Shown: positions 9,508-23,952 of the stretch, one piece after another
Position numbering within the stretch: position 1 is the stretch's first letter
How the letters are laid out: each line of letters begins with the position of its first letter
Origin: a virus
DNA: 33,501 nucleotides
IMG/VR virus record: IMGVR_UViG_3300037847_000167
Coordinates: 1 to 33,501 of that record
Strand: one strand, 5' to 3'
Program-made: the position numbers and the translations under genes
The notes under the pieces: generated by a model
Told to the model about the DNA's origin: nothing
The model's input: only the letters and a program-made list of their open reading frames with translations
Database searches by the model: none

Positions 9508-9969
9508 TTATCCCGTGGTCTTCATGGGCATGGGTTTGTACTGCGTAGAACCGAGCTTGATTGTTCGCGCTGTGCCTCTGATGTTTGGTTTTGCAAGCGG
9601 TATGGTTTGTGACGCTTTAATTATGGCGTCACGAACTGCCGGTCGTTGTGCAATTCCCGGAACAGTAGGGCTGCGTCCCATAGGCACACTTGTTACCTGT
9701 CCTGCCGCGCCAATACTTGCAGCAGCCATAGAGGTAGCTCTATTAAGCTCTACGTCGGGCATATCACCCATAGTCGTCACGCTTGTTCCAAACAGCGTAC
9801 GTGCCACCGCACTTCCCGCTTCACCTGCTTGTTTTGCTCCGAATCCAAAATCATCTAGAAAACTACCGAACGCAGTAGGAGCAACGTATTCCGTGTACAG
9901 ATTACTTACAACAGGGGCGGCCATTGCAGCGCCCACAGACGCTAATGCTATTTTGAATAAATTAGTCAT
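9508..9969 (-). CDS. Hypothetical protein of the internal-virion block (153 aa)
   Basis: The N-terminus MTNLFKIALASVGAAMAAPVV is hydrophobic and Ala-rich, like a signal peptide or a membrane-active helix. The rest is Gly/Ala/Thr-rich with basic patches near the C-terminus (TARTIKLGSTQYKPMPMK). Small proteins with one membrane-active helix are common among podovirus ejected proteins, so this could be a gp14-like or P22 gp7-like component, but no homology was recognised. The ATG overlaps the stop of the 450-residue gene (TGATG), and only a weak ribosome site (GAGTG) is visible, which points to translational coupling. Function unassigned. Confidence 0.7.
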   Translation of the reverse strand: MTNLFKIALASVGAAMAAPVVSNLYTEYVAPTAFGSFLDDFGFGAKQAGEAGSAVARTLFGTSVTTMGDMPDVELNRATSMAAASIGAAGQVTSVPMGRSPTVPGIAQRPAVRDAIIKASQTIPLAKPNIRGTARTIKLGSTQYKPMPMKTTG

Positions 9970-11321
9970 CAGTCACTCTTATATACTGGGAAGATATTGT
10001 CGATTGCTTTGATCTTCAAGAAGTCATCAAACTTGTCGCTGTACATGTCCGCATTGGCAGCGATAGACATAGATTGCATTGCCGCGTTGTGCGCTCGTGC
10101 CAAATTGTTTTCTGATATTTGCAAGTTCCACGACGCTTGATCGCGGTATGCTTGCCACAAATTGTTCAACGATTGCTGATTGATTTGCAACAAGTTCATT
10201 ACGTTCTGTTGATTTGCGGCGTTAGTTGCTGCGGTGTTAGATGTGTTGATGTTACGCCGCCAAGTTGCATTACTTTGTGCAATCTGTGCAGACATGCTGG
10301 CGTTAAATTGATCACGAGCCGCTTGCATTTGAGTGTTGAATTGAGACATTGCGTTCTGTTGCGACACATTATACTGTTCAACAGCAGCTTTTCTGTTTAG
10401 CGTTGCTGACTCAACCTGTACACCTAGTTGGGCAAAAAACGTGTCAATTTGTGTCTGGGTCTTAGCGTTGAACTGTCTAGCAGCATTTTCTTGGGCTACA
10501 TCCGATAGCATTGCCTGAAGTTTTCCTTGATAGCTTATACTAGCAGCCTGTTGCTCGTTTGTCAGATTCTGCATATCAAGAGCAAGGAAAGATTTTGCGT
10601 TGTTTGCCGCAGCCTGTTGCCTTGCATTTAAGTTAGCCATATCCATCTGTGCAGAGGCCGCAGCATTTTGCAACACGGCCTGTTGTTGATTAGATAAATT
10701 TTGCAACTGAATGGTGGCGTATTTTTGTGCATCTTGGGCAGCAATTGGAATGCCGGATTCCATGATTGCTTGCACATTGGCAGCGGCTGCCATGCTAGAT
10801 GCGCCCAGACCGCGCTGCTGCATGATTGCAGACACTCTACGCACAGCGGGGGCAGCCCACGGCGGAAGAGGCTTGCCATCTTCGATAGTATTAAATAACT
10901 CTGCTAATTGATAACGAGTTGTGGCACGAGGGTCTAATTCAGCGGTGGCAGCAGATGCCAAACTTTCAGGAGAGAGAGTGGCCTGTGCAGCTTTCATAAT
11001 TGAGCCGGATGAAAGTTCTCCTTTTGCTGCTTCTGCATCAGGAACTACACCTACCTGTTCTGCTTGTATTTGAGGTGCTTGAGGTTTCTCTGGTGCTTGT
11101 TGATCAAATTTCTGTGCGTCAATCGCCGCAGCCAAGGCAGCAGGATCGCGACTTTCCACCCGCCCCGCGTCTTCTGGAACTAACTCGCCCTCTTGAAGCA
11201 CCATGTCAGTAGGGGTAATTTGTTGGGTTTCAGGAAGTTCGGTAGCTTCAGCCTTACGTGCCTGTTGCTGTACGAGTTCTGCCTCTAGCTGTTCGCCCGT
11301 TTTACCTTCGAGTTCTGCCAT
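9969..11321 (-). CDS. Gln/Ala/Asn-rich putative internal virion protein (450 aa)
   Basis: Residues 1-110 are acidic, Gln- and Pro-rich and look disordered. From about residue 130 onward the protein is a long, low-complexity helical region rich in Gln, Ala, Asn and Ser (segments such as QNAAASAQMDMANLNARQQ, QFNTQMQAARDQFNASMSAQ). This composition is typical of podovirus core or ejection proteins that form helical assemblies. There is no membrane segment and no enzyme motif. The next four genes downstream are likely members of the same assembly. The ribosome site is weak (GATAAG region), and the start follows the 72-residue membrane gene almost directly. Assignment is by composition and gene order. 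Confidence 0.75.
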   Translation of the reverse strand: MAELEGKTGEQLEAELVQQQARKAEATELPETQQITPTDMVLQEGELVPEDAGRVESRDPAALAAAIDAQKFDQQAPEKPQAPQIQAEQVGVVPDAEAAKGELSSGSIMKAAQATLSPESLASAATAELDPRATTRYQLAELFNTIEDGKPLPPWAAPAVRRVSAIMQQRGLGASSMAAAANVQAIMESGIPIAAQDAQKYATIQLQNLSNQQQAVLQNAAASAQMDMANLNARQQAAANNAKSFLALDMQNLTNEQQAASISYQGKLQAMLSDVAQENAARQFNAKTQTQIDTFFAQLGVQVESATLNRKAAVEQYNVSQQNAMSQFNTQMQAARDQFNASMSAQIAQSNATWRRNINTSNTAATNAANQQNVMNLLQINQQSLNNLWQAYRDQASWNLQISENNLARAHNAAMQSMSIAANADMYSDKFDDFLKIKAIDNIFPVYKSD

Positions 11322-15038: not shown

Positions 15039-15719
15039 TTAGGTTGCCCTTACGTAGTAATTTTCATTTACAAGTATCTTACGCATGTTTTTCATGCCTT
15101 CATCAAACTTGTTTTTTGATATTGATGCCATCTCCATGTTGTCACGGAACATGTAGCAGTAGTACATAGCACCATCTACAATGACGTATTTGTATGGTTC
15201 TGGTATCATAGGCACGTCATCATGCAGGGACAAATTGACAGGGTGTAGGAAATACTCGTACTCGACCCTGTACGCTTTGTCAGGCATGGGTATGATACCA
15301 AAGTAGCCGTCTTGTGATCTAAATACAAACTCGGGTACGCCACCCTTTGTGGTATCTGTTTCATCCTCTTGATCTATGTAGCGATCTACATATTCCACGT
15401 AGGTAATCTTACGTAACTTACGTGCCCTGCCTACGTCGAGGCTTGTGTCTCGCTTGACTCGAAACGTATCGAAGTCTACATATTTAGCCTCGTCCGCAAA
15501 CGAGTAACGAGTCTCTCCGGCAACCAGTGTGATTTCATCCGAGTTGTGATTGTAGGGCCAGTACAGATAGTACTGATTGATGTCACGGATAGAAGAGTTC
15601 ACTGCATCTTTGATAGTCCCGTAAAACCCTTTTGCAGTAGAAAAATTAGTAGATGTAAGTTCTGTTTCGTTGAGACGACGAGCAACGCTGTTGACGAGTT
15701 CGAGATAATTGTATGCCAT
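15039..15719 (-). CDS. Head-tail adaptor (tail tubular protein A; T7 gp11 / P22 gp4-like)
   Basis: The protein has 226 residues, close to the usual length for this family. It starts MAYNYLELVNSVARRLNETEL, a helix pattern common to podovirus adaptors, and continues with a helix (IKDAVNSSIRDINQYY), a beta segment (ITLVAGETRYSF) and a C-terminal Tyr-rich helical part (YKYVIVDGAMYYCYMFRDN). The adaptor ring binds below the portal and carries the nozzle. The order fibre-tail adaptor, this gene, nozzle matches podovirus tail modules. The start overlaps the upstream stop (TAATG), and GGGAG lies 9 bases before it. Confidence 0.85.
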   Translation of the reverse strand: MAYNYLELVNSVARRLNETELTSTNFSTAKGFYGTIKDAVNSSIRDINQYYLYWPYNHNSDEITLVAGETRYSFADEAKYVDFDTFRVKRDTSLDVGRARKLRKITYVEYVDRYIDQEDETDTTKGGVPEFVFRSQDGYFGIIPMPDKAYRVEYEYFLHPVNLSLHDDVPMIPEPYKYVIVDGAMYYCYMFRDNMEMASISKNKFDEGMKNMRKILVNENYYVRAT

Positions 15720-16060
15720 TAGTTACGCTCCCTTACTCGCAAGTTGATTACCCGTTTCGTAACGATAGCAGCAGTGGTCTTAGCTGACGTGCTTGTTGTG
15801 ATCTCGCAGATTAATTTGTTGTCCACATTTGCTGTGCCGCCTGATAGCACAATGGTGGCTGTCGTACTAGTGTTCGCAATACGATTTACAGTCATGCCGT
15901 TGATCGTATCCGAAGCAGAAAGGTTGCTCGACTCTGTGCCGTCAGACTGTACAAAGCGCCACGCAACAGACGCAATAGTCAGCGTGTCTAAGTACCGAGA
16001 CCAATCTACAGTGTAGTCTAGCTGTTCATCCGGGTCTTTGTCGGGCCATCGTAATGACAT
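15719..16060 (-). CDS. Phage fibre-tail adaptor-like protein (113 aa)
   Basis: Residues 3-22 (LRWPDKDPDEQLDYTVDWSR) match the characteristic start of small phage proteins annotated as fibre-tail adaptors: a KDPDE(x)LDY(x)(I/V)DW signature. A beta sandwich-like body (TATIVLSGGTANVDNKLICE) follows and the C-terminus is a basic strand (VINLRVRERN). It probably links fibre proteins to the tail tube. Its location, between the repeat-rich protein and the gp4/gp11-like adaptor, agrees with that. AAGG is 9 bases upstream of the ATG. Confidence 0.8.
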   Translation of the reverse strand: MSLRWPDKDPDEQLDYTVDWSRYLDTLTIASVAWRFVQSDGTESSNLSASDTINGMTVNRIANTSTTATIVLSGGTANVDNKLICEITTSTSAKTTAAIVTKRVINLRVRERN

Positions 16061-16061
16061 T

Positions 16062-17291
16062 TTATGCTACCTTTGCTAATCTTTGTGCGGCTTGAGGCAC
16101 AGATACCATTCGGGGTTTTTCTGCAGATACGAGGGCAATTCGCTGTTTATCTTGGGCAATATAAATAACATGCTTACGTTCGTAGAGCGTCGCGTCAAAG
16201 AAGAAGGATCGGAATCCGTCTGCAGTGACTGTCGCTTGACCTGATACGGATGCGGTTCCTACTTGAAGACGAGTTGCCAGTCCTGTAATCGATGCAGTGC
16301 CAACTACAGAGACCGTTACAATCACTGTCCGAACACCAGTGGCTGTGGCTGTTGTTGCGCTGGATACGGATGCGTCTACGTTGTGAATTCGTACTGCCGC
16401 GCTGGATTGAGAGGCAGTGCCGCTGACGCTGCTTGCGCCGTCCCGAACGCGGATTGCACTTCCAGATACGGTTGCCTGACCAGAAGCAGAAGAACTTGCA
16501 TTGAAAACAACTGTCGAAGATGCGGAAACAACCGCTGTACCCGAAATAGACGCCGAAACGTCCCTAACTCGAATTGCCGCTCCGGCGACCGTGCCTGCGC
16601 CCGATACGGAGCTTCCGCCCTCCTGTACCCTGATTGCCGTTGCGGAAACTGTACCCGCACCTGACACGGAAGATTCTGCGACGGCTCGTAGGGCTGCAGA
16701 AGACGACGCGGTTGCCTGACCAGATACAGAGCCAGTAACAGGAGCGAGAAGTGTAGCCGCCGCCGATACAGTCGCTGTCCCAGATACAGACGCTGCAGCA
16801 GTTTGGATGCGAATACCGCTGGCTGATACCGTGGCGGCACCGGACACGGACGACACACCCGCCGCTCTAAGCAGCGCACTTCCTGATGCTGTTGCTGCAC
16901 CAGAGATGGCGGAGTCGCCCGGACGAAGGGCTGTTCCTGTCGAACTTGACGAGCCACCTGCAGAGATAGAGCTACTTGCAATAAGACGAGCGGTGGCTAC
17001 TGACGTTTGCGTACCCGCAGCAGATACAGATGCAGCGCCCGTGGCTGTCAGTGTGGCACTTGCACTAACCGTGCTTGAGCCGCTTGAATCTACTCCTGCT
17101 AACTGGAACGATACTGTATCTACGTCCGCTATAGTAGCAGCACCAGATACAGAAGCTGTTACATCCTCTAATAAACCTATCGATGCAGATACTGCTATAC
17201 TGGCAGCACCAGAAACGGAGGCAGTTACCTCAAAGAGCGAAGTACCCGGAGACGAAAAAGGTGCTTGCGAAAATGAGGAGGATGCAAACAT
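16062..17291 (-). CDS. Ser/Ala/Val-rich structural protein with 20-residue repeats (409 aa)
   Basis: The start MFASSSFSQAPFSSPG resembles N-termini of phage structural proteins of the 'MxFGSSxFGxxxFS' kind. Two or three degenerate units precede residue 88. From residue 88 to 367 the protein consists of fourteen 20-residue units in exact register with consensus near SVSGxATVSASAIRVxxxxS. The last 42 residues are different and charged (YERKHVIYIAQDKQRIALV), suggesting a separate anchoring domain. Alternating small polar and hydrophobic residues suggest a beta-solenoid or stacked beta hairpins. It is flanked by a chaperone-like gene and the fibre-tail adaptor, so a fibre or tail decoration role is likely. 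I know no named family for it. Confidence 0.8.
   Translation of the reverse strand: MFASSSFSQAPFSSPGTSLFEVTASVSGAASIAVSASIGLLEDVTASVSGAATIADVDTVSFQLAGVDSSGSSTVSASATLTATGAASVSAAGTQTSVATARLIASSSISAGGSSSSTGTALRPGDSAISGAATASGSALLRAAGVSSVSGAATVSASGIRIQTAAASVSGTATVSAAATLLAPVTGSVSGQATASSSAALRAVAESSVSGAGTVSATAIRVQEGGSSVSGAGTVAGAAIRVRDVSASISGTAVVSASSTVVFNASSSASGQATVSGSAIRVRDGASSVSGTASQSSAAVRIHNVDASVSSATTATATGVRTVIVTVSVVGTASITGLATRLQVGTASVSGQATVTADGFRSFFFDATLYERKHVIYIAQDKQRIALVSAEKPRMVSVPQAAQRLAKVA
16191..17030 (-). repeat. Fourteen 60-bp coding repeats
   Basis: Codons 88-367 of the 409-residue gene fall into 14 units of exactly 60 bases. There is no insertion or deletion over 840 bases. Units are degenerate in DNA but keep S-(V/I/A)-S-G at the start, Ala/Thr-rich centre and, in many units, (A/G)IRV at positions 13-16. 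Confidence 0.9.
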
Positions 17292-17295
17292 CTAC

Positions 17296-17847
17296 TTAGT
17301 CCAGCGGATCAGGCCAGTCGTTGATCGGTGCGTTGCCTGTTGGCTTTTTATTTGAATCTGTAGGCGTATCAAACAATGCTACGAAGGCTGCGTGATCTGC
17401 AGCGTTGTCGATGGCAGTTTCGATTTTGCCACTCGCTGTACGGACCGCAGCGCGGTAGGTAGACACATCAGAAGGAATAGCTGTGTCTGTTTCTGACTTG
17501 CGTACGACGTACCAATCGGTGTCTTGCAGCAACCCACCAGCAACATCTTTTGTTTTATTTTTCCAGATGGTCTTCAGGCCGGGTACAACAACTTGCTTAC
17601 CATCGATGCCAAGAATCGGATCACCCTTTTCATCGACTTGCTTTACATCGTCAAGGGCTTTGGGTGTTTTTGCGTCCCAATAAAATTGACTGTTGTAGGG
17701 TGCCGGATCATCTTCCCACACCAGACCAACAGCTTTCTTTTCTGCATCCGTAGTCAGAGATAACCAGTTGCCCGGATATTGGTTGCCGTCGTTATCAGAC
17801 CAAGCCTTCCCTGCTCGAATGATTTTACTACTGTATTTCCATGCCAT
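17296..17847 (-). CDS. Tail fibre assembly-like protein (183 aa)
   Basis: The N-terminal part (MAWKYSSKIIRAGKAWSDNDG, then QYPGNWL and LVWEDDP) is a domain I associate with phage fibre regions. The C-terminal part (LLQDTDWYVVRKSETDTAIP then VSTYRAAVRTASGKIETAID) is very like the C-terminus of tail-fibre assembly chaperones, which typically have a (T)DWxxxRxxExxxxIPxxxxxYRxxxR pattern. It probably helps fold or attach the adjacent fibre proteins, the 1198-residue protein upstream or the repeat protein downstream. AGGAG at 8 bases before the ATG is a strong ribosome site. Confidence 0.75.
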   Translation of the reverse strand: MAWKYSSKIIRAGKAWSDNDGNQYPGNWLSLTTDAEKKAVGLVWEDDPAPYNSQFYWDAKTPKALDDVKQVDEKGDPILGIDGKQVVVPGLKTIWKNKTKDVAGGLLQDTDWYVVRKSETDTAIPSDVSTYRAAVRTASGKIETAIDNAADHAAFVALFDTPTDSNKKPTGNAPINDWPDPLD

Positions 17848-17861
17848 CAGTACGTCTCCTG

Positions 17862-20800
17862 TTATCTTGCATTGGCATATTTAAAAGGTTGTTCAGCGAA
17901 GGCGAGGTACATGAATGTGCTACCGCTTCCATTTTGTTCAGCGCTCGTGCCTCTTAACTTAAATCCGTTAGATATTAAATCTATGCTATAGCTGCTGGAT
18001 GTGCTTTCTGCGCCACTATTATCTGCCTCAATTCTAGCATCAATAACATTGAAGGGGTCTGGTCTTTTGTTATCGAAGATTTTCCAAGAACCTGTCGTGT
18101 TGGTGCGTTTCAACATTATCCATGCTGGCTTAAATCCTGTGTAAACAAACGCGCCATCGCTTGAGCCATTGCCGGTGTAAGTACCAACCTTGCTGTAGCC
18201 TTCAATTTCGGCAAAACAGTAAGCAATTAGTTCTTGGCTTGAACTGCTAGTGTAAGAGCCGCCGCCCAAGTTTAGTACTGTGCTAGTGGGTGCGCCGGTA
18301 AAAAAGGTGGAACCGGCATTTGTTTGTTTGGCAGCGGTATCATCAAGCAAAAGGTAATCACTTGTCCACGTCCAGTTTGCAATATCAGCGCCAATAACCC
18401 AATTACCTGTTGCTGTTCTCTGCTTAACCATAACAAAATCAGGCGCAACCCCTAATCCGTGACCCACAGTCGCCGCAGAATCAGACCCAGTATATGCAAC
18501 AATGCTAAATCCAGCTTCAGTATTCACAGATACTTGACTGGCTAGATCGCCAACATCATTAGTGGAATCTGATCCACCCGCTTTCCAGTTCCACGCAACG
18601 TAGGTTGCACCACTGTTTCCGCCCCAGACCCCAGAACCAGAACCTGATCCTACTGTAAATCCGTCAGAGTCAAAACTTTTAAGACCGTTAGCATCAGTTG
18701 ATTCGGCGGTGGTTGCGTTCGGGAACAGAGTTTTAGTAACGCCACGAACTACATCAGAGGTTGCGTGATTGTCGGTAGCAGAACGCTTTTTAGCCCAGAC
18801 CCAGTCTGGTTGGAATCCTACTCCTGTGATTGACAGGGTTGATGCGCCAGTTCCCGTATAAGTCACCGTATTGAAGTACTCGTCCGCCGTTTCGCCCTTA
18901 TTCGGATCGATGGCGGGATCGGGTAGATTTTCGCTGCAGAGAGCAAGAAAACCAGTGGGCGGCGCATAATAGAAATCGCCATGACCCCTACTGTCCGTGT
19001 TTCCCTGTGCAACTTCAGTGTTATTAAAGTCGCCGTTCTGCCCGAAGTTAATGATAAATGTTTCCGTTTCGCTTGCCCCGGTCATCTCAATCATCGGGGT
19101 CCACGGTTCGCTAAAATCTAATGACGTAAAGGACGCATTCGTGCCAGCCGCTGGATCACCAGATGTACCAGTGATGTCGCCACTCCCATCTCCAGAGTAA
19201 AAATTCGTCCCGTTGCCTACCCACATCTTTCCATTGTCGGCATCGAGAGCAATCTGTACGATGTTTGTGACGGTCGGCCCTGTTCCTGAAATAGCTGTTG
19301 AACCTGTGCCATCCTTTGCGAAAAAAGTTACCGCTGCCGTTGATTGAGTTTGAAATGAAGCAAAACCGACGCCCTCGCTAGGATCGGTGTGCAGCATATA
19401 CCTGAAACCGCTGCGAGAAATTCCAAATCCTACATAATCACCAGTGCCGGGCAGCGTTAGCTCCCAATACCATTTACCGCTCGTAATATGAAATGTCGAA
19501 CCTAATCGACTGCGATTTGCCTGTCCCGAACCAGAGGTAAGAGTCGCCTTTAGGTTGCCCTCTTCCAAAGTCGGAGACGTGTTAAAAAGCAACGGGTTGA
19601 AGGTCGCAAAGTTATTCGTCGGCCTGTCCGGCACCACATCGGTATGCTCTAGGTTGATGTGCTGAAAGTCATTGTTGTTACCCGACTGATCAGTCCAGAA
19701 AGCGTACTCGCGGGTGTCAGCGAATGCCATGTAAACGTATTCACCACTTGATGTGTTTACGGCTGGAGAGTTCGTGTTAAGCTCAAAGCCTGTGCTGGTG
19801 AAGGTGAAGAAGTCGTTTGTTGAACCTTCGGCGTTTGATAGGTTCGCATAGAGCAAGTCATCATTACCTGCGGCAGTGTTCACTGTGCGGGTATTGTCAA
19901 CGATATACCACGAGTTAACTGCATCTCTGCGTTTTACCATAAGCCACGCAGGTGCAAAGCCCGTTGTGATAGCGTGCCCAGAAGAGCCGTTGCCGGTGTA
20001 GCTGCCCATTTTGCTGTAACCAGAAATGTCAGTCCAGCAGTAAGCTACGTATGTGTCACCACTTTCGTTTGTTCCGCTGCCGGTGCCGACTGAAAACACA
20101 GTAGACGTTGGCGCGGTATCGTTCCAAGTCGTGTTGTCATCGACTGTCGCTGCGTCAGTATTAAAAGTTAATTTATCAGTTTCTGGATTAGCAGTGTTAC
20201 CGGAATGATAGACCTGCCATGCTTGCGTATCATTTGTCCGTTTTTTCACAATAATCATTGTTGGCGCAGCACTAAGACCGTGCGCGATTGTTCCTGCAGA
20301 ACCTGTCCCTGTGTAAGTAACGATACTAAAACCGCGAGTTGTATTAGCTGATAATTTGGTTGCTGGGATTGTACCAGCAAGCGCAGAACCTAGATTAGCG
20401 CCGTCAATTTTTACAGAGCCAGCGGTTGGGGTTGCCCCTGCACCTGCGCTGTTGGTTGCTGTGGGCGCACCTCCAGCCTTCCAGCACCACGCGGCTAGTT
20501 CATTGCTACTACCATTTACGCCGCTGTTGTCAGATGTGCCTGTTGCGACGGTAAAGCCATCAGCGTCGAAGCTGTCGATTTTTCCGTTATCACCTGCGGC
20601 TTCTACGGCTGTGGTGTTGCTTTCTATCTTTTGAGTGCCGCCGCGAACACTGTCAAACCAGCCGTGATCTTTTGCGGTGTCCCTGCGTTTGATCCAGACA
20701 AGATCAGGTTGAAAACCTACTCCGCCGACTGACCTGCTTGAAGCGTTATTACCCAGCCAAGTAACCGTATTGAACCCTTCGACAGTCGTGTCGTCTTCGA

Positions 20801-21458
20801 ATGTGAGACGGAAGCCGTTGGTGCCGTAGCTGCCGGTGTATTGTTTCGGTATCCAGATGCCACTTTTTGTTTCGCCAAAGCTAGATGCGTCGAGGGCTGT
20901 GCCGTCGATGAAATTGATCTCTGCCATATAGCCGTCAAAATACCGATTAGTATCAGACGCGCTTCTTCCAATATTATGCGCTTCGGTATTGTTTATTCCT
21001 GTATCGTAATTTTGTGCTGGGTATGTTTCTGTGCCAAATGATGTAACTTGTGTGCCATTAATGTAAACTTTGCAACGGTTTGACGCTGTCGATTGCGTTG
21101 TGTCTACTTCAACAGCGATATGATAAAACGCGCTTGTATCTCTAAACTTTTGGCTTGTTCTTAAATGACCATCCGTAGTACCCCCAAACAAAACATCAAG
21201 CGTATCGTCAGAAGCGTGTAACCTGATTTGGGTATTTTCTGTGCCGCAACTAAAAAGCGTTTGATGATTTGTTGACCCAAGAGTAAGGCTACTTCGCTTA
21301 ATCCACGAACTCCAAGTCCAAGTTCTTTGATTTCCAGCAGATGTAGGTGTGCGTTCTAGATACGCGCTGTCACCGTCATTGAATCGCAAGGACTGGTCTA
21401 AAGGAAAGTCATAAAACCCAGTGTCACCACCGGCACCGATGCCAAGAATACCACTCAT
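17862..21458 (-). CDS. Lectin-like tail protein: LamG-like, SPRY-like and repeated domains (1198 aa)
   Basis: Residues about 22-200 look like a LamG/concanavalin-A-type domain (SLRFNDGDSAYLERTP, then WTWSSWIKRSS, FYHIAVEVDTT, VYINGTQVTSF, FDGYMAEINFIDGT). Residues about 640-810 resemble a SPRY/B30.2 domain (HITSGKWYWELTLPG, VGFGISR, KMWVGNG). On each side lies a cassette of three repeats marked by G(x)xPxxxxxKxR: at about 246, 393 and 500, and again at about 879, 1000 and 1105. I know similar repeats as DUF7483-like domains. These are carbohydrate-binding style folds, so it is a candidate receptor-binding tail protein. It overlaps the upstream gene by ATGA. Confidence 0.8.
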   Translation of the reverse strand: MSGILGIGAGGDTGFYDFPLDQSLRFNDGDSAYLERTPTSAGNQRTWTWSSWIKRSSLTLGSTNHQTLFSCGTENTQIRLHASDDTLDVLFGGTTDGHLRTSQKFRDTSAFYHIAVEVDTTQSTASNRCKVYINGTQVTSFGTETYPAQNYDTGINNTEAHNIGRSASDTNRYFDGYMAEINFIDGTALDASSFGETKSGIWIPKQYTGSYGTNGFRLTFEDDTTVEGFNTVTWLGNNASSRSVGGVGFQPDLVWIKRRDTAKDHGWFDSVRGGTQKIESNTTAVEAAGDNGKIDSFDADGFTVATGTSDNSGVNGSSNELAAWCWKAGGAPTATNSAGAGATPTAGSVKIDGANLGSALAGTIPATKLSANTTRGFSIVTYTGTGSAGTIAHGLSAAPTMIIVKKRTNDTQAWQVYHSGNTANPETDKLTFNTDAATVDDNTTWNDTAPTSTVFSVGTGSGTNESGDTYVAYCWTDISGYSKMGSYTGNGSSGHAITTGFAPAWLMVKRRDAVNSWYIVDNTRTVNTAAGNDDLLYANLSNAEGSTNDFFTFTSTGFELNTNSPAVNTSSGEYVYMAFADTREYAFWTDQSGNNNDFQHINLEHTDVVPDRPTNNFATFNPLLFNTSPTLEEGNLKATLTSGSGQANRSRLGSTFHITSGKWYWELTLPGTGDYVGFGISRSGFRYMLHTDPSEGVGFASFQTQSTAAVTFFAKDGTGSTAISGTGPTVTNIVQIALDADNGKMWVGNGTNFYSGDGSGDITGTSGDPAAGTNASFTSLDFSEPWTPMIEMTGASETETFIINFGQNGDFNNTEVAQGNTDSRGHGDFYYAPPTGFLALCSENLPDPAIDPNKGETADEYFNTVTYTGTGASTLSITGVGFQPDWVWAKKRSATDNHATSDVVRGVTKTLFPNATTAESTDANGLKSFDSDGFTVGSGSGSGVWGGNSGATYVAWNWKAGGSDSTNDVGDLASQVSVNTEAGFSIVAYTGSDSAATVGHGLGVAPDFVMVKQRTATGNWVIGADIANWTWTSDYLLLDDTAAKQTNAGSTFFTGAPTSTVLNLGGGSYTSSSSQELIAYCFAEIEGYSKVGTYTGNGSSDGAFVYTGFKPAWIMLKRTNTTGSWKIFDNKRPDPFNVIDARIEADNSGAESTSSSYSIDLISNGFKLRGTSAEQNGSGSTFMYLAFAEQPFKYANAR

Positions 21459-21949
21459 TTTGTGTCCAAAGCCCTTCCAATTTCGTGCAGGTTTGTACCG
21501 TCAGATACAAAGACAAGTTGATCACGCGCACTGGCAGTCGTCGTAAGCGTCGGAGCCGTGCCACCAACAAACTTAAACACAGAGTTGAATGTAGCTGTGC
21601 GCGAACCTGTACCGTCCTGTTTAATTATCAAAACGTATGCTGCACCGTCAACCTGATTCGTCGGCGCACCGAAAGTGCGATTGCCGCCTAACGTAACACT
21701 TGTCACCTGATTAGCAGAAGTATCCCACGCAATTGTAGAAGCATCTGTAAGTGTCGTCGCATTGAAGTTCTGGGTAGCCGTAAACTCCTGCGCCGTTTTC
21801 AGGTTCGCAACAGCGAAACCGCCTGCCTGCGAGTTGTCGTGAACAATGAGGGTATCCTTGTCGGTATCGACTGTGACCTCGCCTACCGCGCCGGTAAAGG
21901 AGCCGTGTTCAGAAGTCGTGCCCCGTCTAAGCTGTACTTGCTGTGCCAT
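21455..21949 (-). CDS. Short fibre-tip protein (164 aa)
   Basis: Residues 3-45 (QQVQLRRGTTSEHGSFTGA, then VGEVTVDTDKDTLIVHD) are a module found at fibre N-termini or inside fibres (the 'xLRRGT...FTGAxGExxxDTxxxTLxVHD' pattern). Residues 53-164 form the domain shared with the C-terminus of the 648-residue fibre. The gene sits between the repeat-rich fibre (TAATG coupling) and the lectin-like protein (ATGA coupling), so the three are probably translated together. It may be a detachable tip or a cap for the 667-residue fibre. Role inferred from shared modules and position. Confidence 0.8.
   Translation of the reverse strand: MAQQVQLRRGTTSEHGSFTGAVGEVTVDTDKDTLIVHDNSQAGGFAVANLKTAQEFTATQNFNATTLTDASTIAWDTSANQVTSVTLGGNRTFGAPTNQVDGAAYVLIIKQDGTGSRTATFNSVFKFVGGTAPTLTTTASARDQLVFVSDGTNLHEIGRALDTK
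21458..21793 (-). repeat. Shared fibre-tip domain, copy 2 (112 codons)
   Basis: This stretch encodes residues 53-164 of the 164-residue protein and pairs with 11534-11869. Alignment is gap-free, with 84 of 112 residues identical by eye. Differences cluster in the last third. Confidence 0.85.
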
Positions 21950-23952
21950 TAGGTTATTGCTCCATAATCTTGTGAACTAGCGGCTGATCCCGTAATCAAA
22001 CCGAAGTCGAGGTCGCCAAGACCCAAATCTGACACAACCTCTGATGCTGATCTGCCCTCTATCGAGGTTCCGTTAACACGCAAGAAGTCGTCGTCTGCAA
22101 CGCCGGATGTAAACACGGGGACGTTACCGTTGCTGATGCCTGTGGCTGCAACAGCCGCTGTGCCGAGACCTAGAGATGTTCGTGCTGTGGCCCCGGTTTC
22201 TAGTACAAAGTTCGAACCATCGCCGACGATAAATCCACCGTTGGTAACGGCGAGGCCAGCTATATCCTGTAACTGTGCGTCGAGTCTGGCGTTAGCCACT
22301 GTGCCGGATAATTGGGAAGCGTTTATTGTTTTGTTTGTAAGCGTGTCAGTGGAACTGGCTGTAATCGCTCCTATGTCAGACAGAACTTCCGACGTTGACC
22401 TGCTTTCTAATCCATTTGCAGTGAACCGTGCATACTCGTCATCTGCTACAGAGGAACTGTCGATCTTGACTGCATTGGTGTTACTGATGCCAAAAGTAAG
22501 GCTGGCTTGACCGCCAATGTCAGACAGCACCTCGCTAGTTGATCGGCTCTCTAGGCCATTAGCTGTGAACCGGGCATATTCATCATCTGCAACAGATGAG
22601 CTATCAATTTTGACTGCGTTGGTGTTACTGATGCCAAACGTCAAAGCAGCTTGACCGCCAATGTCTGACAAGACCTCTGATGTTGACCGGCTTTCTAAAC
22701 CACTGGCTGTGAAGCGTGCGTACTCGTCATCAGCAACTGAACTGCTGTCTATCTTTACAGCATTTGTGTTCGAGATGCCAAACGTCAAGCTGGCCTGACC
22801 ACCGATATCGGACAAGACTTGCGAGGCAGAGCGGCCCTCAATAGCAGTGCCATCAACTCGTAAGAAATCATTGTCAGCAACGCCAGACGTAAACTTGGGT
22901 ACGTTCGTATTCGATATGCCTGTGTCTAGCACGGCTGCTGTGCCGAGTCCCAGACTTGCTCTCGCAGTAGAACCAGACTCTGCAACAAAGTTCGATCCGT
23001 CGCCTACGATAAAGTTACCGTTAGTTACTGCAAGGCCAGCCACGTCCTGTAGCTGCGCGTCGAGTCTAGCGTTAGCGACAGTGCCTGTAAGATTAGCTGC
23101 AGGTATGCCGCCTGTGCCTGTGATGTTGTTGCTGTTGAGATCGAGATTGCCCCCGAGTTGTGGGCTAGTATCGTCAACCAAATCCTGCATAGCAGAGTCT
23201 GCGGTAGACCCCTGTGCCGCAGTAGCAAAGTCAGACGAGTCGAATGCTTTAACCTGCGAAAGGTTAGTGACTTCGCTGTCCATCAACGCGCCAGCAGCAG
23301 TAACATTTGCTGTATCAGTTACGTCCGCAGAGGCTTCGATACCGTTTAGTTTAGTATGGTCAGCGTCGGTAAAGACATTACTGTCGGAAGCACTCTCTAC
23401 AAGTGTGCGGATTTCAGCAGCAGTTTGATCTGCAGTTGCACTGGCCTCGATGCCATTTAGCTTGGTATGGTCAGCATCAGTAAAGACGTTACTGTCACTT
23501 GCGCTTTCAACAAGTGCGCGTATCTCACTTGCTGTCTGATCAGCGGTAGCACTCGCTTCTATGCCGTCGAGTTTCGTACCGTCAGTAGCAAGATCGCGGC
23601 CATCAATCGTGCCGGGAATGGAGATGTTGTTACTGCCGTCGAGGAACACCGCCTTCTCTGCTGGCTGCGTTATAAAAACGTCTCTTGTGCCAGCGCCCCA
23701 GTTAACAGCATTGTTGCTGTTACTAGACTCTAAGATAGTGGTGCGTGCTAAAGTTGTTCCAGATGAAGCGAAGGTGCCGATACCGACCTCAAAGTCATCT
23801 CCGTCTGTGCAACAGTAGTAGGTAGTATCTCCGTTGCTTAACACAGCATTGAAAGACTGAAACCCGGTGGCAGCACCTGCTAGATTGTAAGCATCCGTGC
23901 TTCCCGTGGTTGTAGTCGTTTCTTTGACGCGATCTTTTACAACAAGAGCCAC
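21949..23952 (-). CDS. Repeat-rich tail fibre protein (667 aa)
   Basis: The N-terminal domain (residues 1-105: MALVVKDRVKETTTTTGSTD ... TRDVFITQPAEKAVFLDG) is a recurrent phage tail-fibre attachment domain. Three repeat types follow: 37-residue units (TKL(D/N)GIEAS..., from residue 126), a 58-residue block present twice (288-345 and 548-605, starting L(T/S)GTVANARLDAQLQD), and 48-residue units starting near LTFGISNTNAVKIDS (three close copies, plus diverged copies at 346 and 606). This is typical of an extended fibre shaft. The start codon is GTG with AGAGG 8 bases before it. It is coupled to the fibre-tip gene downstream by TAATG. Confidence 0.85.
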   Translation of the reverse strand: MALVVKDRVKETTTTTGSTDAYNLAGAATGFQSFNAVLSNGDTTYYCCTDGDDFEVGIGTFASSGTTLARTTILESSNSNNAVNWGAGTRDVFITQPAEKAVFLDGSNNISIPGTIDGRDLATDGTKLDGIEASATADQTASEIRALVESASDSNVFTDADHTKLNGIEASATADQTAAEIRTLVESASDSNVFTDADHTKLNGIEASADVTDTANVTAAGALMDSEVTNLSQVKAFDSSDFATAAQGSTADSAMQDLVDDTSPQLGGNLDLNSNNITGTGGIPAANLTGTVANARLDAQLQDVAGLAVTNGNFIVGDGSNFVAESGSTARASLGLGTAAVLDTGISNTNVPKFTSGVADNDFLRVDGTAIEGRSASQVLSDIGGQASLTFGISNTNAVKIDSSSVADDEYARFTASGLESRSTSEVLSDIGGQAALTFGISNTNAVKIDSSSVADDEYARFTANGLESRSTSEVLSDIGGQASLTFGISNTNAVKIDSSSVADDEYARFTANGLESRSTSEVLSDIGAITASSTDTLTNKTINASQLSGTVANARLDAQLQDIAGLAVTNGGFIVGDGSNFVLETGATARTSLGLGTAAVAATGISNGNVPVFTSGVADDDFLRVNGTSIEGRSASEVVSDLGLGDLDFGLITGSAASSQDYGAIT
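22366..22797 (-). repeat. Three 144-bp coding repeats in the fibre
   Basis: Codons 386-529 of the 667-residue fibre form three tandem 48-codon units. The second and third are identical in protein over 43 residues (from LTFGISNTNAV to VLSDIG) although 23 of those 43 codons differ. Diverged relatives of the unit lie at codons 346-385 and 606-645. Confidence 0.9.
23329..23577 (-). repeat. 111-bp coding repeats in the fibre (two full, one partial)
   Basis: Codons 126-162 and 163-199 are two 37-codon units (TKL(D/N)GIEASATADQTA, then EIR(A/T)LVESASDSNVFTDADH). A third partial unit (TKLNGIEAS) follows at codon 200. Confidence 0.88.

Follow-up and report, generated by a model that had tools for sequence, protein, structure and literature searches.

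Collars of 15-fold symmetry that carry fibers have been described in Anabaena phage A-1(L) (PMC10966104), and also in DEV and GP4 (PMC10925440). The neck fibers of A-1(L) are bead chains, i.e. long fibers made of many repeated elements and placed on the collar, the repeated element being a separate trimeric protein (gp81) present about 14 times. In GP4, fiber I reportedly consists of dimers of gp80 that a rope protein links together. Tandem repeats within a phage protein are known as well from crAss-like phages, where repeats of the BACON domain are an evolution hotspot, according to excerpts of the study (PMC6949934); as these excerpts have it, each unit is a whole carbohydrate-associated domain. 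The protein reported here shares tandem repetition with the BACON proteins and, as proposed below, a long repetitive fiber on a 15-fold collar with A-1(L), but its repeats are units of only 20 residues within one chain.

The window, which is the whole stretch of DNA that was analysed (33,501 nucleotides), is an IMG/VR virus fragment. Its tail adaptor shares 51% identity with the one of Roseobacter phage CRP-345 and 47% with the one of Puniceispirillum phage HMO-2011, and we thus assign it to an HMO-2011-like podophage. Phages of this type are described as dominant in the ocean, with a wide distribution there, according to excerpts of the source (PMC9038755). As in GP4, whose 15-fold fiber-tail adaptor is Gp77, the window encodes a Gp77 homologue. 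The repeat protein gene lies directly upstream of it, and an SU10-type adaptor gene comes next downstream. On the other side of the repeat protein gene are a gene for a chaperone-like protein of 183 residues, for which a Pfam Phage_tail_APC match was below cut-off, and then the gene of the DUF7483 protein (Table 1). Such neighbours fit the structural role in the tail region that a first-pass annotation had proposed.

Table 1. Position of the repeat protein, its parts and the neighbouring genes in the window.
Feature	Position	Strand	Evidence or remark
SU10-type tail adaptor, 226 aa (PF24175)	15039..15719	-	Pfam E 5e-23
Gp77 homologue, 113 aa (PF23148, podophage GP4 fiber-tail adaptor)	15719..16060	-	Pfam E 4.8e-15
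Repeat protein gene, 409 aa, ATG at 17291	16062..17291	-	ORF; slot and end caps common to related contigs
C-terminal cap, residues 368-409	16065..16190	-	
About four decapeptides RxVxVxxExx within the C-terminal cap (residues 374-409)	16065-16172	-	
15 units of exactly 20 residues each (residues 68-367)	16191..17090	-	Include the 14 first reported
Two irregular units, 22 and 21 residues (residues 25-67)	17091..17219	-	
N-terminal cap, residues 1-24, begins MFASSSFSQAPFSSPG	17220..17291	-	Similar even in array-less relatives; L009, L028, L159, L180
183-aa protein, short tail-assembly/chaperone-like match	17296..17847	-	phrog_27919 E 2.8e-8, phrog_4912 E 3e-6
1198-aa fiber/virion protein, C-terminal DUF7483 (PF24299)	17862..21458	-	E 1e-208
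164-aa protein with Mtd_N (PF18454), N-terminal domain of phage tropism determinant	21455-21949	-	E 8e-14

The array comprises 17 units over residues 25-367, with lengths of 22, 21 and then 15 times 20 residues. The first-pass annotation had seen 14 of them, in residues 88-367 (DNA 16191-17030), and these are indeed consecutive, gap-free units of 20 residues: at lag 20 the amino-acid identity reaches 0.293, compared with 0.126 +/- 0.016 in 1000 shuffles (shuffle maximum 0.183), and it is as high at lags 40, 60 and 80. The reported absence of indels holds for this segment, but not for the whole array, which opens with the two irregular units; the repeats also extend further than was reported, and at the C-terminus a further repeat, with a period of about 10 residues, had been missed. 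The decapeptides of this second repeat are in register at H374, R384, R394 and R404, and the second half of the last 20-residue unit merges into the C-terminal cap. At the DNA level the units are degenerate, as had been noted, with a mean pair identity of 45% (best pair 67%), and neighbours are no closer than distant units. Since divergence is strong and neighbouring units show no excess similarity, the array is old and does not result from recent duplication.

In 196 distinct units of the window type, the most conserved residues are Gly4 (87%), Ser3 (77%), Val/Ile2 (75%), Ser1 (73%) and Val8 (62%), and positions 13-17 are the most variable. Conserved hydrophobic residues or Gly occupy unit positions 2, 4, 8, 12, 15 and 18. 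Ser, Ala, Thr, Gly and Val make up 78% of the array, and the first four of these 60% of the whole protein. On the opposite strand, two ORFs (16807-17355 and 16263-16664) have the appearance of by-products of the repeat composition.

That no named family was known for this protein was borne out by the searches: it had no Pfam match at E <= 1, none in PHROGs or NCBIfam, and tblastn against the phage collection returned no match. Sequence searches of the PDB, with the protein and with a unit profile, gave nothing useful, and none of the 140 pattern matches from a scan of bacterial genomes was a relative. As the direct tblastn was empty, relatives were found through adaptor and Gp77 searches of viral contigs. 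Matches to Bflower_3 and DUF5649 on contig L008 were below cut-off and probably driven by composition. We conclude that the repeat protein represents an unnamed, modular family of marine phages, well supported as a family; it is annotated only as hypothetical, though HMO-2011-type phages are described as dominant in the ocean. The family of Gp77-associated slot proteins, as defined here, includes the window protein by its position and by both its caps, and its array changes by whole 20-residue units.

We then compared the proteins occupying this slot in related contigs. They range from 107 to 842 residues with the same caps, and close relatives retain the C-terminal cap as well as the peptide MF..SSFS..PFS at the N-terminus, for a number of units going from 0 (L009, L017, L028) to about 30 (L016). 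Spacing between units was exactly 20 in 298 of 345 steps (86%, counts that include near-identical relatives), the other spacings in this set falling at 18-23 or close to multiples, apart from a few larger ones. Internal gaps in pairwise alignments of relatives measured 20 (six times), 40, 60, 80 (twice) and 100 (twice), besides a few of 1-8 and one each of 16, 19 and 26; most large indels between close relatives are thus whole units. Between the repeats of the window and those of L005, dN was 0.030 and dS 0.186, with no indel. All this agrees with the earlier proposal that unit length is under constraint. Variable unit length in homologues, which had been named as the observation that would speak against it, was encountered in part: some units have 18-23 residues, and arrays of 21-22 residues occupy the same slot elsewhere. 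The C-terminal module varies too, and its alignment shows one extra decapeptide, a clean insertion of 10 residues, in L015 and L019. L009 and L028 are without any array, so that the caps do not need it for their own role, whatever this may be.

Besides the number of units, the type of unit changes. Periodicity was significant in 38 of 50 distinct slot proteins, at 10, 20 or 40 residues in 30 of them and mostly at 21-22 in the rest. Quite different units are found in the slot, such as SSAGTSSVSGSALLVAKGVG (L158), SATGTATVTGIASSTVDSVG (L187) or GSFTLTGQDVGLVANNLSVGQ (L180, period 21). The C-terminal module of window-type proteins, modelled as an HMM, nevertheless matched slot proteins whatever their unit type: L028 (E 3e-36), L158 (8e-29), L157 (1e-27), L159 (3e-26), L177 (2e-16), L055 (6e-15) and L180 (1e-5), for a best value of 0.41 among 20 shuffles per protein. 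The C-terminal module therefore persists where the SVSG array is absent or replaced by unrelated units of 20-22 residues. Inserted domains were detected as well. A Laminin_G_3 domain (E 2.7e-11) lies within the array of L078 (L078:1919-3274), and about 380 residues, with no Pfam match, follow the N-terminal cap in L007:5130-6320. The slot protein of L185 (2880-3998) contains an insert that looks cupredoxin-like by eye (H..C..H..M pattern) and has no Pfam match. L180, L188 and L189 were seen to carry GSFTLTGQ-type repeats of 20-22 residues in the slot upstream of Gp77.

Among isolates, Gp77 is present in CRP-345, CRP-207 and CRP-603, each with a protein in the slot upstream. CRP-345 gp55 and CRP-207 gp50, two Roseobacter phage proteins annotated as hypothetical, have a lag-20 peak like the window protein but a different, SVSATGSIGTVSPNIKEDIT-type unit sequence; in CRP-345, an ORF of 37 residues with RTV-type repeats separates gp55 from Gp77. 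The slot protein of CRP-603 has no lag-20 periodicity. With the unit model, CRP-207 gp50 scored E 8e-6 and several contigs had domain E-values of 1e-5 to 1e-3, and none of 20 shuffles of each was matched, so that window-type and CRP-type units are related. HMO-2011, CRP-1, CRP-2, CRP-212, CRP-235 and CRP-738 have no Gp77, and no periodic protein between coat and adaptor: the adaptor gene comes after the coat gene, with at most one small gene between them, and the C-terminal model has no credible match in these six phages. Co-occurrence of Gp77 and repeat protein may reflect shared ancestry, since the isolates with Gp77 form one related group. Together with adjacency, it should be read as an association, and not as proof of contact. 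In Microcystis phage Mae-JY22 (L124:744-1421), 22-residue repeats (LxVxDaxHaHxxDxxxL) were noticed three genes upstream of Gp77. The C-terminus there has a nine-residue, RALVIPTET-like repeat; this resemblance of the tail was seen by eye, the C-terminal model giving no match.

Taken together, these data are compatible, at about even chances in our estimation, with the repeat protein of HMO-2011-like marine podophages forming a fiber, rope or spacer on the virion, a filament anchored to the collar whose length evolves by duplication and deletion of units. As relatives carry from 0 to about 30 units, gained or lost whole, such a tail-collar filament would probably be of adjustable length. It would be encoded in the fiber module beside the collar protein Gp77, with a conserved cap at either end of an array in which each unit probably consists of two short beta-strands joined at the conserved Gly (SVSG-xATVSASAIRV-xxxx). 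One cap would tie it to the Gp77 collar. The likely anchor is the module of C-terminal RxVxV decapeptides, which is kept where the array is missing or exchanged, and which would probably dock on Gp77 or on its neighbour. In-frame recombination would add or remove whole units and so change the length, and the array could be swapped for another repeat of 20-22 residues, or receive an inserted binding-type domain, the caps being kept. The repeats, the caps, the variation by whole units, the exchange of unit type and the association with Gp77 are shown by the sequences; from these we infer presence in the virion, a beta filament, its docking on Gp77 (from gene adjacency and co-occurrence) and a function as length-tunable tether. 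Conservation of both ends, the relatives without an array, the aperiodic slot protein of CRP-603 and the low confidence of the structural models would argue against the filament.

These models were obtained with AlphaFold2, for the full protein with a 24-row alignment (pLDDT 47.8, pTM 0.36) and for six units with a 38-row in-register alignment (pLDDT 52.5, pTM 0.38). In both, at this low confidence, the array is all-beta with two strands per unit, laid out as a strand, a tight turn after Gly4, a strand at positions 7-14 and a loop. The rigid beta solenoid first suggested is not established by these models, which have strands but a low pLDDT, nor by Foldseek, whose best PDB match, at E 0.19, is insignificant. 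A monomeric beta-solenoid with one turn per 20-residue unit, as in curli CsgA or hemagglutinin-type repeats, would account for the unit length, for the two strands per unit and for the conserved hydrophobic or Gly positions, and the insignificant Foldseek matches were mostly beta-solenoids (fusolisin, CsgA, ice-binding proteins). Those repeats have units of about 20 residues, probably with two strands each, but their consensus is different, and neither a significant fold match nor a sequence match was found (no curli or hemagglutinin-repeat Pfam match at E <= 1). AlphaFold2 over-predicts beta-solenoids for perfect repeats (PMC11795689), so that even a confident solenoid would need checking, and a pLDDT near 50 in both runs in spite of this bias speaks against a solenoid, which we hold to be rather improbable. 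Failure of the monomer prediction is, on the other hand, what is expected of a homotrimeric fiber shaft (a triple beta-spiral or similar), which folds only by intertwining three chains. Its unit would be a strand-turn-strand followed by an exposed loop, as the strand, tight turn at Gly4, strand and variable loop of the models suggest, and five trimers would find room on a 15-fold collar, as they do in A-1(L) (PMC10966104). No Adeno_shaft match was found in the window protein at E <= 1, however, and trimeric fibers do not usually have anchoring peptides at both of their ends; we hold such a shaft to be just as improbable as the solenoid.

Conservation of both ends fits with an extended rope, largely one strand thick, each repeat of which would bind one copy of another fiber protein, as the rope protein of GP4 fiber I reportedly does. 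The lack of a globular prediction, the free variation in unit number and the decapeptide tail, which also resembles alternating strand and turn, point the same way, as does a Gp77 collar protein family common to GP4. GP4-related BcepMigl, however, has no match to the repeat model or to the C-terminal model near Gp77, and no repeating partner protein was identified in the window; we give the rope a rather low probability. A mostly disordered, low-complexity linker, in which the period is kept only because units duplicate whole, would explain the composition and the pLDDT near 50. Against it, units have kept their length of 20 despite a divergence that leaves 45% DNA identity, dN falls well short of dS, a period of 20-22 recurs in the slot among several unrelated unit sequences, and hydropathy and charge put the array on that side of the Uversky boundary where folded proteins lie (hydropathy 0.563 versus 0.414). 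Such a linker seems equally doubtful.

If the protein is a collar-anchored filament, recombination between units, by altering its length and inserted domains, would offer a quick route to change the reach and binding of a short-tailed phage. More tentatively, and in our view with the odds somewhat against it, Gp77-bearing podophages may share a modular collar filament, in which the caps are conserved, decapeptides at the C-terminus serve as anchor, and two-strand units of 20-22 residues form an array that can be exchanged: the unit sequence would be substituted as a whole from one phage to another, with a period always close to 20. This would be a new class of beta-filament, in which recombination determines length and cargo. 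A period that hardly changes when the unit sequence is replaced also provides a natural series in which to study what makes a short beta repeat fold.

Two further proteins of the window, both encoded on the minus strand, are periodic. A protein of 450 residues (9969-11321), with no Pfam match, has a weak periodicity of 44 residues (z 4.9), and a tail-fiber-like protein of 667 residues (21949-23952) has a strong one of 48 residues (lag-48 identity 0.24, z 13.5).
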